From an uncultured Prevotellaceae bacterium (lineage in GTDB: Bacteria; Bacteroidota; Bacteroidia; Bacteroidales; Bacteroidaceae), in the NCBI GenBank assembly GCA_900315095.1, contig OMXS01000004.1:1-64000 (forward strand): 64,000 bases of DNA, written 5' to 3'. Positions 18,395 to 25,871 of the stretch are shown piece by piece. Under the pieces are notes generated by a model that was given only the letters and a program-made list of their open reading frames with translations, made no database searches and was not told the origin of the DNA. How positions within the stretch are numbered: position 1 is the first letter of the stretch; the number at the start of each line of letters is the position of its first letter. A program made the translations under genes and the position numbers.

Positions 18395-19732
18395 TTACAC
18401 GATTCCCTGCGCCATCATTGCATTTGCAACCTTCATAAAGCCGGCGATGTTAGCACCTTTGACATAGTTGATGTAGCCGTTGTCTTCGCCGTACTTCATG
18501 CACTGCTCGTGTATTCCCTTCATTATGGTGTGCAGTTTCTCGTCAACTTCCTCGGCACTCCATGACATGCGCATAGAGTTTTGAGTCATCTCGAGGCCTG
18601 ATGTGGCAACGCCACCGGCATTTACTGCCTTGCCAGGAGCGAAGAGTTGCTTTGCAGCAATGAACTTGTCCACAGCCTCTGCGGTGCATCCCATGTTGGA
18701 AACCTCTGCCACGCAGCATGGCTTGTTGGCCAGGATCTGGTCGGCGTCGGCACCATTGAGCTCGTTCTGTGTAGCACATGGCAAGTAGATGTCTGCCTTC
18801 TGCTCCCATGGTTTCTTGCCCTCGAAGAATGTTGCTTCTGGGAATTCCTCTGCGTAAGGTTCGCAAATGTCGTTGCCGCTGGCGCGGAGCTCGAGCATAT
18901 ACTCAATCTTCTCGCCGCTGATGCCCTCTGGGTCGTAGATATATCCGTCAGGACCAGAGATGGTGATAACCTTGGCGCCCAGTTCTGTTGCCTTGGTAGC
19001 AGCGCCCCATGCCACGTTGCCGAAACCAGAGAGGGCCACAGTCTTTCCCTTGATGTCGATGCCGGCGTTGTCGAGCATGTGGTGAACGAAATAAAGTGCG
19101 CCGAAGCCTGTTGCCTCAGGACGCAGTATAGAGCCTCCCCATTCCAGGCCTTTTCCGGTGAGTGTGGCACCGTGGAACTGGCTTGTCAGTTTCTTGTACA
19201 TTCCGAAGAGGTAGCCAATCTCGCGTCCGCCCACGCCGATGTCTCCGGCAGGAACGTCCATGTCAGGACCGATTACCTTGTATAGTTCGCACATGAATGC
19301 CTGGCAGAAACGCATAATCTCGGCATCGCTCTTGCCGCGCGGTGCGAAGTCGGAACCTCCCTTGCCGCCGCCCATAGGCAGCGTGGTGAGTGCGTTCTTG
19401 AATGTCTGCTCGAAACCGAGGAATTTAAGGATTGAAAGGTTAACAGAAGGATGGAATCTCAGTCCGCCTTTATACGGGCCGATGGCGCTGTTGAACTGCA
19501 CGCGGTAGCCGATGTTCACCTGTACTTCTCCCTTGTCGTCCACCCATGGCACGCGGAAAGTGGTGATACGCTCTGGCTCTACGAGACGCTCTATGAGTTT
19601 CGCCTTCTCAAACTCGGGGTGCTTGTTATAGACATCAACGATAGATGTAAGCACCTCTCTTACAGCCTGCAGATACTCTGCTTCACCTGGATGCTTGCGC
19701 TCCAGACCTTGCATTATTTTCTCAACTTCCAT
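18395..19732 (-). CDS. gdhA: NADP-type glutamate dehydrogenase
   Basis: 445 residues, the length of hexameric GDH. Converts 2-oxoglutarate and ammonia to glutamate. The N-terminal substrate domain contains GPYKGGLRFHPSVNLSILKF and PMGGGKGGSDFAPRGKSDAE with the catalytic lysines; the nucleotide domain has VALSGFGNVAWGAATKATEL. Family knowledge assigns this subgroup mostly to NADP-dependent ammonia assimilation. It is a single-gene unit with its own terminator and promoter. Confidence 0.97.
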   Translation of the reverse strand: MEVEKIMQGLERKHPGEAEYLQAVREVLTSIVDVYNKHPEFEKAKLIERLVEPERITTFRVPWVDDKGEVQVNIGYRVQFNSAIGPYKGGLRFHPSVNLSILKFLGFEQTFKNALTTLPMGGGKGGSDFAPRGKSDAEIMRFCQAFMCELYKVIGPDMDVPAGDIGVGGREIGYLFGMYKKLTSQFHGATLTGKGLEWGGSILRPEATGFGALYFVHHMLDNAGIDIKGKTVALSGFGNVAWGAATKATELGAKVITISGPDGYIYDPEGISGEKIEYMLELRASGNDICEPYAEEFPEATFFEGKKPWEQKADIYLPCATQNELNGADADQILANKPCCVAEVSNMGCTAEAVDKFIAAKQLFAPGKAVNAGGVATSGLEMTQNSMRMSWSAEEVDEKLHTIMKGIHEQCMKYGEDNGYINYVKGANIAGFMKVANAMMAQGIV

Positions 19733-19788
19733 AGTATTGTGTTTTTATTTAAAGGTTAAGATGTTGACAATGTGTCAAGTATGTACGG

Positions 19789-20575: not shown

Positions 20576-23563
20576 ATGGAAAACGATATCCCGCAGCAGT
20601 GGAACAAGTTTATTTTAAAGGATGTCTCGTTCGTCAACCTGATGACACGACGCATTTTCAACGTCCTTATCGTTGCCAATCCCTACGATGCCTTCATTTT
20701 GGAGGACGACGGACGTGTGGATGAGAAAATCTTCAACGAATATACCGAACTGGGCATCCGTTACCCGCCAACGTTTACGCAGGTGTCAACGACAGAAGAG
20801 GCAGAGCAGGTGATGAAGTCGACGAGCATCGACCTCGTAATATGCATGCCTGGTAATGCAGACAACGACGCCTTCTCTGTGGCACGCGATGTGAAGGCGA
20901 AGTTCCCTGAGGTGCCGTGTGTGGTGCTCACCCCGTTCAGTCACGGTATTACGCGCCGCATCGAGAACGAGGACATGAGTGTGTTCGACTATATCTTCTG
21001 CTGGCTGGGAAACACCAACCTCATCCTCTCCATCATAAAACTGATAGAGGACAAGATGAACATCGAGCACGACATAAAGGAAGCGGGAGTGCAGATGATC
21101 ATGCTCGTAGAGGACAACATCAGGTTCTACAGCAGTGTGCTGCCCAACCTTTATAATTATATTCTTGCGCAGAGTCAGCGTTTCGCCACCGAGGCACTTA
21201 ACCCCCACAGCGCCACGATGCGCATGCGCGGGCGTCCAAAGGTGGTGCTTGCCCGTAACTACGAGGAGGCGATGCAACTTTACGAGAAGTATCATGACAA
21301 CACGCTAGGCGTCATCTCCGACTGCCGTTTCCCGATGAAGGGCGGCGACCGCGATGCCCATGTGCTGGAGAAAGACCCCGAGGCGGGATTCAAGTTGCTG
21401 GAGGAGATACGCCGCCGCGATGAGTACCTGCCGTTGATAATGGAGAGTTCGGAGACCGAGAACCGTGAGCGAGCGCTTGCCGAGGGCTTTAAGTTCGTTG
21501 ACAAGAACTCTAAGAAGATGAACATCGACCTTCGTCACATCCTTGAAGAGCATTTCGGCTTTGGCGACTTCATCTTCCGCGACCCTGTGACACGCGAGGA
21601 GATACGGCGTATAAGCAACCTCAAGGAACTGCAGGACAACATCTTCACCATACCTAACGACTCGATGCTGTTTCACATCTCGCGCAACCACGTCAGCCGC
21701 TGGCTTTCGGCGCGTGCCATCTTCCCCGTTTCGGCGTTCCTGAAGACGGTGACTTGGCATAAACTGCAGGATGTGGATGCCCACCGCAAGATTATCTTCG
21801 ATGCCATCGTGCAGTATCGTCACATGAAGAACCAGGGAGTGGTGGCTCTGTTCCGTCGCGACCGTTTCGACTCATACAGCCACTTTGCCCGCATTGGCGA
21901 CGGCTCGCTTGGAGGCAAGGGCCGTGGTCTGGCATTCCTTGACAATATCGTGAAGAGGCATCCAGAGTTCAACCAGTTTGAAAATGCCAAGGTGATGATA
22001 CCTAAGACGGTAGTGCTATGTACCGATGTCTTCGACGAGTTTATGGAGTCTAACAACCTCTACCATATAGCATTGAGCGATGCCCCCGACGAGGAGATAC
22101 TGAGACATTTCCTCCGTGCGCAGTTGCCCGACGCCTATATCGCAGACTTCTTCACTTTCTTCGAGGCCACGAAGAGTCCTATCGCCATTCGTTCGTCAAG
22201 TCTTCTCGAGGACAGTCATTATCAGCCGTTCGCCGGTATCTACAGCACCTACATGATACCTTATCTTGAGGACAAGTATCAGATGCTGCAGATGCTCGCC
22301 GCAGCCATAAAGAGCGTTTACGCTTCGGTGTATTACCGCGACTCTAAGTCGTATATGACAGCCACATCCAACGTTATCGACCAGGAAAAGATGGCTGTAA
22401 TCTTGCAGGAGGTGGTGGGCAAGCAGTATGGTTCCCACTTCTATCCTAACATCAGCGGTGTGCTGCGCTCGCTCAACTATTATCCCGTTGGCGACGAGAC
22501 ATCAGAGGAAGGTATTGCCTCGCTTGCCCTCGGACTCGGAAAATATATTGTTGACGGCGGCTTGACGCTGCGTGTCAGTCCATATCATCCCACTCAGATA
22601 ATGCAGATGAGCGACATGGAAATCGCTCTTAAGGAGACCCAGACTAAGTTCTATGCCCTCGACATGGATAACGTGAGTCATGAGTTTAAGGTCGATGACG
22701 GCTTCAATATCTTGAAACTGAAGGTTAAGGAGGCCGACAAAGATGGTTCGTTGAGATACATCGCTTCCACTTACGACCCCTACGACCAGATGATTCGCGA
22801 CGGATACTATGAAGGAGGCCGCAAGATAATAAGCATGAACGGAGTCTTGCAGCACGGCATCTTCCCGCTTCCCGAGATACTGCAGATGTCAATGAAGTAT
22901 GGTGCCGAGAGCATGCGACGCCCCGTAGAGATAGAGTTTGCTTGCAACGTCAACGACGACCGCACCGGGGAGTTCTATCTCCTGCAGATACGACCGATAG
23001 TCGATTCCAAGCAGGTGCTTGACGAGGACCTCGGCTCTATCCCTGATGACAAGTGTCTGTTGCGTTCGCACAACTCGCTGGGACATGGCATCTCAGAGGA
23101 TGTTGTCGATGTGGTGTATGTCAAGGCCGACGAGGATTTCTCGGCCATTAACAATCCTGCTATTGCCGACGACATAGAGCGCATCAACCGCAAGTTCCTC
23201 GACGAAGGCAAGAACTATGTCCTTATCGGTCCCGGGCGATGGGGCTCAAGCGACTATTGGCTCGGCATTCCTGTCAAGTGGCCGCATATCTCGGCTGCAA
23301 GAGTTATCGTTGAGGCTGCGCTTAAGAACTATCACGTTGACCCTTCGCAGGGAACCCATTTCTTCCAGAACCTCACCAGTTTCGGCGTGGGCTACTTCAC
23401 GGTGAACGCTTACTCAGGTGATGGTGTGTACCAGCAGTCGTTGCTCGACTCCATGCCTGCCGTTGAAGAGACACAGTACGTGCGGCATGTGCGCTTTGAC
23501 CGTCCGTTGAAGATTATGATGGATGGTATGAGCCAGGAGGGAGTGGTGCTTTTGCCCAGTTAA
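20576..23563 (+). CDS. Receiver-domain / PEP-pyruvate-binding (PPDK N-type) fusion protein
   Basis: 995 residues. Residues about 22-150 form a degenerate receiver-like domain (Met where the phospho-Asp should be, VICMPGN). Residues about 174-325 form a second receiver with every key residue: acidic pair E179-D180 (LVEDN), D249 (VISDCRFP), a Ser in IMESSE, and K310 (KFVDKNSKK), plus a long insert after the first helix. From about 436 to 815 there is an ATP-grasp domain as in pyruvate phosphate dikinase and PEP synthase (GDGSLGGKGRGLAFLDN, SPIAIRSSSLLEDSHYQPFA, GEFYLLQIRPIVDSKQ). The swivelling phospho-histidine domain and PEP-binding barrel are absent; instead about 180 residues of unknown fold follow (NYVLIGPGRWGSSDYWLG). 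Homologues are often annotated as PEP synthase, but without the histidine domain that reaction is unlikely. I infer a signalling or regulatory phosphotransfer role. Confidence 0.85.
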   Translation: MENDIPQQWNKFILKDVSFVNLMTRRIFNVLIVANPYDAFILEDDGRVDEKIFNEYTELGIRYPPTFTQVSTTEEAEQVMKSTSIDLVICMPGNADNDAFSVARDVKAKFPEVPCVVLTPFSHGITRRIENEDMSVFDYIFCWLGNTNLILSIIKLIEDKMNIEHDIKEAGVQMIMLVEDNIRFYSSVLPNLYNYILAQSQRFATEALNPHSATMRMRGRPKVVLARNYEEAMQLYEKYHDNTLGVISDCRFPMKGGDRDAHVLEKDPEAGFKLLEEIRRRDEYLPLIMESSETENRERALAEGFKFVDKNSKKMNIDLRHILEEHFGFGDFIFRDPVTREEIRRISNLKELQDNIFTIPNDSMLFHISRNHVSRWLSARAIFPVSAFLKTVTWHKLQDVDAHRKIIFDAIVQYRHMKNQGVVALFRRDRFDSYSHFARIGDGSLGGKGRGLAFLDNIVKRHPEFNQFENAKVMIPKTVVLCTDVFDEFMESNNLYHIALSDAPDEEILRHFLRAQLPDAYIADFFTFFEATKSPIAIRSSSLLEDSHYQPFAGIYSTYMIPYLEDKYQMLQMLAAAIKSVYASVYYRDSKSYMTATSNVIDQEKMAVILQEVVGKQYGSHFYPNISGVLRSLNYYPVGDETSEEGIASLALGLGKYIVDGGLTLRVSPYHPTQIMQMSDMEIALKETQTKFYALDMDNVSHEFKVDDGFNILKLKVKEADKDGSLRYIASTYDPYDQMIRDGYYEGGRKIISMNGVLQHGIFPLPEILQMSMKYGAESMRRPVEIEFACNVNDDRTGEFYLLQIRPIVDSKQVLDEDLGSIPDDKCLLRSHNSLGHGISEDVVDVVYVKADEDFSAINNPAIADDIERINRKFLDEGKNYVLIGPGRWGSSDYWLGIPVKWPHISAARVIVEAALKNYHVDPSQGTHFFQNLTSFGVGYFTVNAYSGDGVYQQSLLDSMPAVEETQYVRHVRFDRPLKIMMDGMSQEGVVLLPS

Positions 23564-23708: not shown

Positions 23709-23739
23709 TTGCAGCTGTGTGCGAAAACAATTACCTTTG
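23709..23739 (+). promoter_or_regulatory. Promoter of small RNA copy 1
   Basis: TTG at 23709-23711 (in ACTTGCAG) and TACCTTTG at 23732-23739, spacer 20 nt. Copy 2 has the same elements with the same spacer. Confidence 0.75.
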
Positions 23740-23743
23740 CAAC

Positions 23744-23811
23744 GTGTTTTTCATAGTATTAGATTTAAGGTTAACAAAAAGGTTGGACTACGGCGGTAGT
23801 CCTTTTTTTTT
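23744..23811 (+). ncRNA. Small RNA gene, copy 1 of a near-identical pair
   Basis: A complete short transcription unit: promoter, a conserved 34-nt block starting GTGTTTTTCATAGTATTAG and ending GGTTAACAA, then the terminator hairpin GGACTAC-GGCG-GTAGTCC (23785-23802) and nine T. The predicted RNA is about 66 nt. It contains no convincing reading frame. Copy 2 at 25786-25850 is identical except for three extra A here before GGTTGG. I have the impression that similar sequences recur in Bacteroidales genomes but cannot name a family. Read-through would run into the MutS-like gene, whose start is 32 nt beyond the T-run. Confidence 0.75.
23785..23811 (+). terminator. Terminator of small RNA copy 1
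   Basis: 7-bp stem GGACTAC / GTAGTCC with loop GGCG, then T9. Confidence 0.92.
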
Positions 23812-23842
23812 GCCCTTACCCCAAGAATGAAGAAAACCAGAT

Positions 23843-25651
23843 ATGCGAATGTTTAAGGAAAAGAGTGAGATAAGAGACTTTTATAACGGCAACGTGTCAC
23901 GTCTTGCAGGCGAGATAGCGTCAAGGAAGATGCGCAACCGACTTTTTGTTGCGGGCGAACTGGCGTCTTTCGTTGCTGCTGTGATTGCCTTTGTCGCGTG
24001 GGCGTCGGGCGGACTCCGTGCTCCGTTGCTCATTCTGGCGCTTCTCTTGCTCGTGGTTTATGCCGTAGTTCGTCATTTCGACATTTCCAACATGCGCAAG
24101 ACAGAACATCTGGAATCCTTGCGCGCATATTATATAAAGGAGACGGAGGCGCTTGACGGCAACTACTCCTCATTCGACGATGGCAACCGCTATGCCGACT
24201 CGGCACATCCGTTCTCTTTCGATCTCGACCTTTTCGGCATCGGGTCGTTGTTCCAGCGCGTCTGCCGTTGTGTCACGCCGGGCGGAAAGACGGCTCTTGC
24301 AAACGCTCTCTCGGTGCTTCCCCACGACAAAAACATAATACTGCAGAGGCAAGACGCCGTTTCCGAACTGACGGAAATGGAGGAGTGGCGTGCCGAATGG
24401 AACAGCAACGTCGCCTCTGATGTGCTCTCTGTAGACCTGAGCGAGTGGGAAACACCGTCGTCAGAATCACTAGACTCATCCTCTGGCAGGCAGCGTCCGC
24501 CCGTTATTGCTTACCTTGCCATCGTTGGCTTCATTACCTCGGTGGTGCTTGCCGTCATCGGCATCGTTCCGTCGTCTGTCCCCACGATGTGGGCCGTCGC
24601 ACAACTTGGAGCGGTGGTAGCCATTACTAACCGTCCGCTTCGTCGCATCAGCCAGGGCGGGGAGAACCTTCTTCGCGCCCTCAGAGGATACATCCCGCTG
24701 GTGGAACTTGTCGATAACGCCTCGTTCAAGAGTCCCCTCATGCTCTCGCTTAGCAGCCAGTTGCAGGGTGACGACGATGCTATGGAGGCCTTCCGCGAGC
24801 TCCGTCGCATCCTCGACGGCTACGACCGCCGCGGCAACCTGCTGGGGATGGTGCTCTTCAACATTCTCTTCTTGAGCGACTATTTCCTTGTGCGCCGTTA
24901 CCACAGATGGCGTGCCAGATATGGCGCGAGGGTGGGGCAGTGGCTAGACGCCATCTCCGAGATTGACTCTTTAGTGTCGATGTCAACCTTCCGTTTCGGT
25001 CATCCAGAGACCGTGATGCCTGTCATTGCCGACGGCGACACGGTGGTTTATGATGCGCGGGCGCTGTGGCACCCCTTCCTTGGGGCAGAAGCCGTGAGCA
25101 ACGACTTCACCATCGGTCACCTCAACTACTACATCATTACCGGTGCCAACATGGCTGGCAAGAGCACCTTCCTGCGCGCCATAGGCATAAACTATATCCT
25201 CGCCATGTCGGGAATGCCCGTCTTTGCCAGCGAGATGACCGTCAGCGTGTTCAACCTTTTCACCTCGATGCGCACCACCGACGACCTGCAGCATGGCATA
25301 AGTTACTTCAATGCCGAACTGCTGCGACTGAAACAACTGCTGCAAAGCATCAGCGACAACCCTCCATGCACCCTCATCATTCTCGACGAGATACTCAAAG
25401 GCACCAACTCCCTCGACAAGCTGAACGGCTCGCGCATGTTCCTTGAAGCGGTGAGCACGATGCCGGTGAGCGGCGTGATAGCCACCCACGACCTCGAGCT
25501 GTCCCACATGGCCGACGGCAACAGCCGCTTTCATAACTACTGCTTCGAGATAGAACTCGGCGAGAGCGTCACCTACAACTATAAGATAACCCCCGGCGTG
25601 GCGAAAAACCAGAATGCCACATACCTGCTGAAGCGCATATTAAGGTCATAA
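23843..25651 (+). CDS. Membrane-anchored MutS-family ATPase
   Basis: 602 residues (start at 23843, or ATG 23849). Two hydrophobic segments at about 33-76 (LFVAGELASFVAAVIAF, LLILALLLLVVYAVV) and two more near 220-262 suggest membrane anchoring. The C-terminal third is the MutS ATPase: Walker A ITGANMAGKSTFLRAIG (about 431-447), the GMPVFASE stretch, TSMRTTDDLQHGISYFNAEL, Walker B TLIILDE (about 510), KGTNSLDK and the ATHDLEL switch histidine. The mismatch-reading N-terminal domain of true MutS is missing. Such proteins are usually annotated as MutS-related, with unknown function; a role in post-replicative mismatch repair is doubtful. It stands alone between two small RNA genes. Confidence 0.9.
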   Translation: MRMFKEKSEIRDFYNGNVSRLAGEIASRKMRNRLFVAGELASFVAAVIAFVAWASGGLRAPLLILALLLLVVYAVVRHFDISNMRKTEHLESLRAYYIKETEALDGNYSSFDDGNRYADSAHPFSFDLDLFGIGSLFQRVCRCVTPGGKTALANALSVLPHDKNIILQRQDAVSELTEMEEWRAEWNSNVASDVLSVDLSEWETPSSESLDSSSGRQRPPVIAYLAIVGFITSVVLAVIGIVPSSVPTMWAVAQLGAVVAITNRPLRRISQGGENLLRALRGYIPLVELVDNASFKSPLMLSLSSQLQGDDDAMEAFRELRRILDGYDRRGNLLGMVLFNILFLSDYFLVRRYHRWRARYGARVGQWLDAISEIDSLVSMSTFRFGHPETVMPVIADGDTVVYDARALWHPFLGAEAVSNDFTIGHLNYYIITGANMAGKSTFLRAIGINYILAMSGMPVFASEMTVSVFNLFTSMRTTDDLQHGISYFNAELLRLKQLLQSISDNPPCTLIILDEILKGTNSLDKLNGSRMFLEAVSTMPVSGVIATHDLELSHMADGNSRFHNYCFEIELGESVTYNYKITPGVAKNQNATYLLKRILRS

Positions 25652-25698
25652 TAGTGGCACTAAAACCTACTATTCACAACAATTATGCCCTAAAATGC

Positions 25699-25712
25699 TT
25701 GATTTAAATCAA
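25699..25712. promoter_or_regulatory. FNR/CRP-type palindrome upstream of small RNA copy 2
   Basis: TTGATTTAAATCAA, perfect TTGATnnnnATCAA. Its centre lies about 80 nt before the conserved RNA start, matching copy 1 within one base. Confidence 0.65.
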
Positions 25713-25750
25713 TAAATGATGATTTTGCTTATAATTTAATACCAAAACTC

Positions 25751-25781
25751 TTGCACAGATTATAAATTGTTATTATCTTTG
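25751..25781 (+). promoter_or_regulatory. Promoter of small RNA copy 2
   Basis: TTG at 25751-25753 (in TCTTGCACAG) and TATCTTTG at 25774-25781, spacer 20 nt, as in copy 1. Confidence 0.75.
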
Positions 25782-25785
25782 CACT

Positions 25786-25850
25786 GTGTTTTTCATAGTA
25801 TTAGATTTAAGGTTAACAAGGTTGGACTACGGCGGTAGTCCTTTTTTTTT
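25786..25850 (+). ncRNA. Small RNA gene, copy 2 of a near-identical pair
   Basis: Same 34-nt 5' block, GGTTGG, and the same terminator hairpin as copy 1, predicted RNA about 65 nt. Only the flanking promoter sequence has diverged, so the RNA itself is under selection or recently duplicated. It ends 45 nt before the promoter box of the GH43 gene. Confidence 0.75.
25824..25850 (+). terminator. Terminator of small RNA copy 2
   Basis: 7-bp stem GGACTAC / GTAGTCC, loop GGCG, T9; identical to copy 1. Confidence 0.92.
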
Positions 25851-25871
25851 GTTATTTAATTTCCATTAGTC

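Follow-up and report, generated by a model that had tools for sequence, protein, structure and literature searches.

FopS (BTncRNA_FopS) is a family of small RNAs (sRNAs) described in Bacteroides thetaiotaomicron in 2025 (PMC11697453). According to the sections of that report drawn on here, Bacteroides lacks the classical sRNA chaperones of Pseudomonadota, the FopS promoter is a canonical sigma-ABfr promoter, and FopS-10 binds the susC start region and blocks translation in vitro, a block that is relieved by RbpB. The same sections call the sRNA-RbpB circuit likely prevalent in the gut microbiota, based on the conservation of both parts across Bacteroidaceae, and note one phage copy of FopS (PMC11697453). 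In Segatella copri, deletion of the RNA colonization factor SrcF, an sRNA attributed to El Mouali et al. (2024, Cell Host Microbe), is reported in a review to affect colonization and PUL gene expression (PMC11814227).

We analyzed a 64,000-nucleotide stretch of DNA (the window) from an uncultured Prevotellaceae bacterium, which carries two short units on one strand, 2042 bases apart from start to start. Judged by family model and structure, these units are FopS small RNA genes of class A: copy 1 (23744..23812, +) and copy 2 (25786..25853, +) both match RF04319 over the whole model (positions 1-71 of 71), with 79.4 and 78.4 bits against a gathering cut-off of 56 and E-values of 5e-10 and 8.2e-10. 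The original prediction had described a duplicated, conserved regulatory RNA of about 65 nt, consisting of a promoter, an identical block and an identical terminator, with only three A differing between the copies. All of these elements were found where they had been placed. Both units begin with the 34-nt block GTGTTTTTCATAGTATTAGATTTAAGGTTAACAA, without any difference between 23744..23777 and 25786..25819 (+), and both end in an intrinsic terminator (23785..23811 and 25824..25850, +) with a 7-bp stem, a GGCG loop and T9 (GGACTAC-GGCG-GTAGTCC), supported by sequence, fold and compensatory changes in relatives. Three additional A in copy 1 are the sole difference between 23744..23811 and 25786..25850. 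Upstream, promoter-like elements occupy 23709..23739 and 25751..25781 (+). In each, a TAnnTTTG box (TACCTTTG at 23732-23739 and TATCTTTG at 25774-25781) ends 4 nt 5' of the first G of the block, and a TTG (at 23709 and 25751) stands 20 nt 5' of the box. We take this promoter-like box to be a putative Bacteroides sigma promoter element. Read off the DNA in this way, the RNAs would be about 65-70 nt long, and we infer that both units are transcribed. A conserved regulatory RNA thus fits everything that could be tested, down to the promoter-like box and the terminator of each unit. The RNA belongs to an already named family.

To assess the RNA structure, we aligned 22 class A copies, two of them from the window, picked from loci with a recognisable block. 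In the terminator stem, 98.7% of the alignment cells were standard pairs, compared with 45-58% for slid structures, and five of the seven pairs changed on both sides (45 cells). None of 500 shuffles reached the stem percentage, the number of both-sided cells or the covariation score. The pair counts were weaker, with 16 of 500 shuffles reaching five both-sided pairs and 326 of 500 reaching the number of pair types. The RF04319 E-values and the 45 cells changed on both sides together argue that the units are not products of chance. Block columns 1-32 varied at one A/G position only, while stem and flanks varied, and the 30 FopS copies that were found with the Rfam model and read also kept the block, some with an ATT insertion; this invariance is partly selected, because the aligned copies were chosen by a recognisable block and the viral FopS loci were gathered by an exact 27-base match. 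As predicted, the 5' block was single-stranded in the folds of both copies (unpaired at nt 1-31 in copy 1 and nt 1-29 in copy 2). The class A terminator loop, RGCG, was kept while the stem changed freely, and other FopS classes had GNRA-like loops; the RGCG loop is a possible protein contact.

We then examined how widely FopS occurs. A third copy lies on another contig of this genome (G000:C57:31468-31539, 75.2 bits) and belongs to a divergent class, whose block carries an ATT insertion and whose stem reads TTGTC-GTGA-GACAA. The genome is therefore multi-copy for FopS, with three copies, below the published 12-15 in Bacteroides. The predicted duplication holds for the pair in the window, but the pair is part of a multi-copy family. 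By the MutS-like protein encoded between the two units, the closest named relative is Prevotella sp. UBA4330 (82%), followed by other Prevotella, Hoylesella and Segatella. The suspicion that similar sequences occur in other Bacteroidales proved correct. In the genus, FopS was present in 112 of 121 sampled genomes at E ≤ 0.001, of which 110 scored above the cut-off, with one to six copies per positive genome, and in all 58 good genomes (≥90% complete, ≤5% contaminated; our own counted). In the order, 69 of 295 genomes carried it, 58 of them above the cut-off, and one relative had as many as 14 copies, in a survey whose searches over 40 genomes pass filters that lose weak matches. The seed was also found at at least 9 of 80 named loci, whose flanks were partly covered. 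In two genomes (L372 in G080 and L373 in G079), the sole FopS copy found has an intact class B block, a degenerate terminator and a score below the cut-off; it is perhaps a decaying or differently ended RNA.

FopS blocks were also present in viral contigs, namely L171, L172, 12 other IMG/VR contigs and PQ571285.1 (44817-44851). Most of them are accompanied by a promoter-like box and a hairpin, and the one in L172 lies near a terminase and a ParB-like nuclease. As a speculation, phage FopS could repress host outer-membrane proteins that serve as receptors.

Association with RbpB, and antagonism by it, is a published property of FopS that the Rfam model does not include. We searched for RRM proteins. 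A PF00076 (RRM_1) search of our 99.98% complete genome gave no match, and the control, Bacteroides ihuae, was positive. Only 4 of the 121 genus genomes had matches, all four among the 58 good ones, leaving 54 good genomes without a match. Across the order, PF00076 matched in 198 of 295 genomes, and 27 of the 69 FopS-bearing genomes had no RRM_1. We found no association between the two: RRM_1 was present in 42 of 69 FopS-positive and 156 of 226 FopS-negative order genomes (p = 0.24). For a stronger FopS set of 59 genomes defined by E-value, the relation was if anything negative (34 of 59 vs. 164 of 236 others, p = 0.09). The lack of PF00076 matches in this genome, in 54 of 58 good genus genomes and in 27 of 69 FopS-bearing order genomes indicates that the published RbpB switch cannot be general. 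Because FopS was retained in all 58 good genomes, 54 of them without an RRM match, the RNA persists, and presumably functions, in genomes that lack such a partner by this search. These genus counts speak against the likely prevalence of the sRNA-RbpB circuit, unless a diverged or unrelated RNA-binding protein substitutes for RbpB, as it may do here.

We propose that each unit has a promoter of its own, from which an RNA of about 65-69 nt would be made, and that transcription would stop at the terminator hairpin of that unit. The near-invariant 5' block would pair around the start codon of target mRNAs, with its 3' half (GATTTAAGGTTAA) pairing with a TTAACC-type word 15-28 nt upstream. By analogy with repression in B. 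thetaiotaomicron, the duplex would cover the ribosome-binding region and block translation, and repression here would probably run without the RbpB antagonist, because no RRM protein was found. We consider it likely, with good but not full confidence, that these FopS genes encode RNAs whose block pairs at mRNA starts and represses, probably without RbpB, with gdhA as a probable and ald as a possible target.

For pairing, we used 339 start regions from 464 kb of our own genome, with automatically assigned start codons. The seed paired with the 339 start windows at a mean energy of -7.90, which none of 60 dinucleotide-shuffled seeds reached (-7.03, sd 0.37); upstream and downstream windows gave -6.94 and -7.58. 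At ≤ -12 kcal/mol, 21 start windows were observed, a number reached by one of 60 shuffled seeds. Other tests gave little: a 17-nt target pattern was not enriched genome-wide (21 matches, three of them FopS genes, vs. 21 for a backward control; follow-up covered the nine that lie on the + strand of the locus), and matching the block complement to start regions at an anchored position without gaps gave a weak result, which 42 of 500 permutations reached.

The best comparative target candidate was gdhA, encoding glutamate dehydrogenase (18395..19732, −; PF00208 and PF02812), about 4 kb from FopS in the window. Target prediction for the 5' block, envisaged in the original prediction, put gdhA first of 339 by full-block duplex energy, with a predicted two-part site from -28 to +7 (19725..19760, −; -18.5 kcal/mol), but the energy alone is not distinctive, since 215 of 26506 tiled windows and 15 of 1695 control windows pair at least as strongly. 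More telling were two short words, each complementary to one half of the block, which share this one duplex in our own gdhA. ACT at -3..-1 before the ATG occurred in 23 of 30 genus leaders, 4 of 23 leaders from other FopS-positive genomes and 1 of 20 from FopS-negative genomes, compared with 11 of 339 own starts and none of 76 leaders of five neighbouring control genes. AACCT, which can pair with AGGTT in the block's 3' half and was chosen after the gdhA duplex had been seen, occurred upstream in 15 of 30, 6 of 23 and 1 of 20 leaders, respectively (controls: 13 of 339 own starts and 5 of 76 control-gene leaders). The block energy followed the same order, at -15.8 in the genus, -14.2 in other FopS-positive and -11.4 in FopS-negative genomes (p = 1.2e-4 and p = 0.024 against the last).

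These counts depend on how the leaders were sampled, and shared ancestry of the leaders weakens all of them. The genus set is the best 30 loci from 61 genomes and not a random draw. The 23 other FopS-positive leaders came from 26 genomes searched, leaving out L347-L353, which comprise G146, G191 and G200 (best match to another gdh subfamily) and four second copies. The FopS-negative set is the first 20 genomes of the order listing, again not random, with more distant proteins (54-72% identity) and 6 of 20 starts shifted by 2-6 codons. A shuffled-seed test did not single out gdhA: out of 200 shuffles, the genus gdhA leaders gave 1 and the FopS-negative ones 5, and control genes gave 0 (GH43), 0 (rlpA), 4 (aquaporin), 8 (PPDK-like) and 70 (mutS-like). 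As control genes do as well, much of the signal appears to be generic complementarity to start regions. In the one leader folded, moreover, upstream TCTTAAC and TTTA pair with the gdhA start codon region, so that the site may be partly hidden. The fold and the control genes both weaken the case for gdhA.

Seven of the 30 genus gdhA leaders lack ACT, and the block is intact in six of these genomes (the seventh, G035, was left out), being read in G080 and G415 only as the CATGG variant. A seed co-varying with weak gdhA sites was not seen; G020, G088, G006 and G094 each have a FopS copy that carries the usual class A block. FopS lay within 12 kb of gdhA in at least 13 of 61 genus genomes, with positions compared by hand in related genomes, against a rough random-placement expectation of about one. 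In G139, which belongs to another family, FopS lies 2.7 kb from gdhA, and the gdhA leader pairs at -18.5. Taken on these comparisons of sequence, gdhA is probably one selected FopS target in the genus.

We examined ald, the alanine dehydrogenase gene, because it adjoins the third FopS copy, which lies about 110 nt upstream of it in the same direction. The ald leader of this genome pairs with FopS at a predicted -22.2 kcal/mol; 16 of 26506 tiled windows and none of 1695 control windows pair as strongly. Elsewhere, ald leaders gave -14.3 (Segatella copri), -17.0 (Phocaeicola massiliensis) and -13.2 (Parabacteroides distasonis). Class B copies elsewhere had no ald beside them: in the loci examined, ald turned up at our own third copy and otherwise as one remote homologue at 30% identity. 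On these predicted energies, ald is possibly a FopS target in this genome. In Segatella copri DSM 18205, ald is located on a 59-kb plasmid record (NZ_CP085934.1, L384) beside ParA and RepB genes.

A different reading is that FopS here represses SusC-type glycan transporters as in B. thetaiotaomicron, with the gdhA signal reflecting shared ancestry and generic complementarity. The published targets, in the sections of the report used here, are mostly SusC homologs (PMC11697453), and the general complementarity of the seed to start regions fits this reading as well. Our genome has 12 susC genes over the cut-off, of which eight were scored with the full block and four gave no start. None of the eight scored leaders ranked in the best 5% of the 339 regions: the best stood at 6%, or 27% with its alternative start, and the window's own susC leader at 68%. 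A ninth SusC-family gene (C49 100920-103838), scored by seed energy, ranked about 10th of 339 and speaks for the transporters, whereas the rarity of the gdhA words in FopS-negative genomes speaks against a gdhA signal of this origin. Predicted pairing is ordinary for most of the eight scored susC leaders. We regard SusC transporters as the main targets here as a possible but rather doubtful explanation.

It is also conceivable, though unlikely in our judgment, that the block is conserved mainly through recognition by a non-RRM RNA-binding protein, with base-pairing secondary. Near-invariance over about 30 nt exceeds the usual needs of a seed, the RGCG loop persists on a varying stem, and in B. 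thetaiotaomicron these sRNAs contain the top RbpB CLIP motif, which spans 41 nt (PMC11697453). However, the block persists whether or not a genome has PF00076 proteins. Moreover, both halves of the block take part in the predicted gdhA and ald duplexes, a possible reason for its length.

The arrangement of the twin units bears on two further explanations. The gene between them (23843..25651, +) had been called MutS-like, and a MutS domain V was confirmed (PF00488, 90.6 bits); hydrophobic N-terminal segments, read from the sequence, set the protein apart from mismatch-repair MutS. On the other side of copy 1, 20576-23563 encodes a protein of 995 aa that contains a PPDK nucleotide-binding domain; its response-regulator match stayed below the cut-off. 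This PPDK-like protein has 98% identity in the nearest relative, and its gene often adjoins FopS. FopS flanks the mutS-like gene on both sides here, in UBA4330 (L033) and in G061 (G028 was not counted beside L033), and likewise in L039, where the left copy is 2.7 kb away. In G044, two FopS copies start 287 nt apart, and the mutS-like gene was not found in the 10-kb stretch around the pair; its loss by recombination between the two copies is unlikely, because both copies remain. The spacer of the first copy is 3 nt longer than that of the second in the window, L033, G061 and G044, a difference common to four loci that makes the pair look old. Both stems are GGACTAC here and GGAGTAC in G061, and L033 and G044 carry one of each, a pattern that we interpret as probable gene conversion between the twins.

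In G009, G070 and G086 (L250-L254), one FopS copy comes after the PPDK-like gene and a second, 7-23 kb away, stands before the aquaporin gene, so that the two copies bound a stretch of variable length like the edges of an insertion hotspot. Such bounding of variable gene content, together with the copies on phage contigs, would suit an origin of the units as mobile-element remnants or boundary repeats, but the stems covary as RNA and the aligned copies have promoter-like boxes, which makes this reading very improbable. Least credible of all is that the units are leader attenuators of the downstream mutS-like and GH43 genes: the mutS-like start codon lies 30 nt beyond the end of copy 1, but the downstream genes vary between copies and genomes, the closely spaced G044 copies have no mutS-like gene in the stretch searched, and the folds show no evident competing structure.

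The reading we prefer, in which the FopS block pairs at mRNA starts, adds to the already known FopS family its independence from RRM proteins and the target candidates gdhA and ald. In the open-licence PMC literature, we found FopS reported neither from Prevotella nor with gdhA among its targets. If gdhA and ald are targets, the RNA would be linked to the nitrogen metabolism of amino acids in addition to any glycan transporter, and the conserved candidate gdhA site offers a directly testable role in ammonium assimilation. We put forward more tentatively, at chances somewhat short of even, that FopS of the Prevotella lineage is a nitrogen-metabolism regulator without RbpB, acting as a two-part anti-initiation guide (AACCT plus ACT-ATG in gdhA; ald in this genome), and that the RbpB switch is a lineage-limited addition to an older RNA.

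Compared with described systems, these RNAs resemble several sRNAs in part. OmrA/B, Qrr and LhrC are likewise paralogous sRNAs with shared sequence, as the cited sections describe them (PMC11697453), and we claim no sequence relation. GibS of B. thetaiotaomicron has the R1 part of its seed in common with FopS but is reported to carry an additional seed, R2, and to have a promoter of a different type, motif-2 (PMC11697453); FopS was the sole Rfam family over threshold in the window. SrcF, an sRNA of the close relative Segatella copri, is likened by its description in a review (PMC11814227). SrcF is possibly a member of FopS, in which case something of FopS in this lineage would be known already. 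The closest counterpart is FopS of B. thetaiotaomicron (RF04319), with which the units share the whole-model match, the 5' seed block, the terminator, the promoter-like box, a length of 65-70 nt and the presence of paralogs. Unlike that system, with its 14 copies, this genome has three, no PF00076 protein was found in it, the window units carry the class A stem with its RGCG loop, and the predicted targets are led by gdhA and ald.
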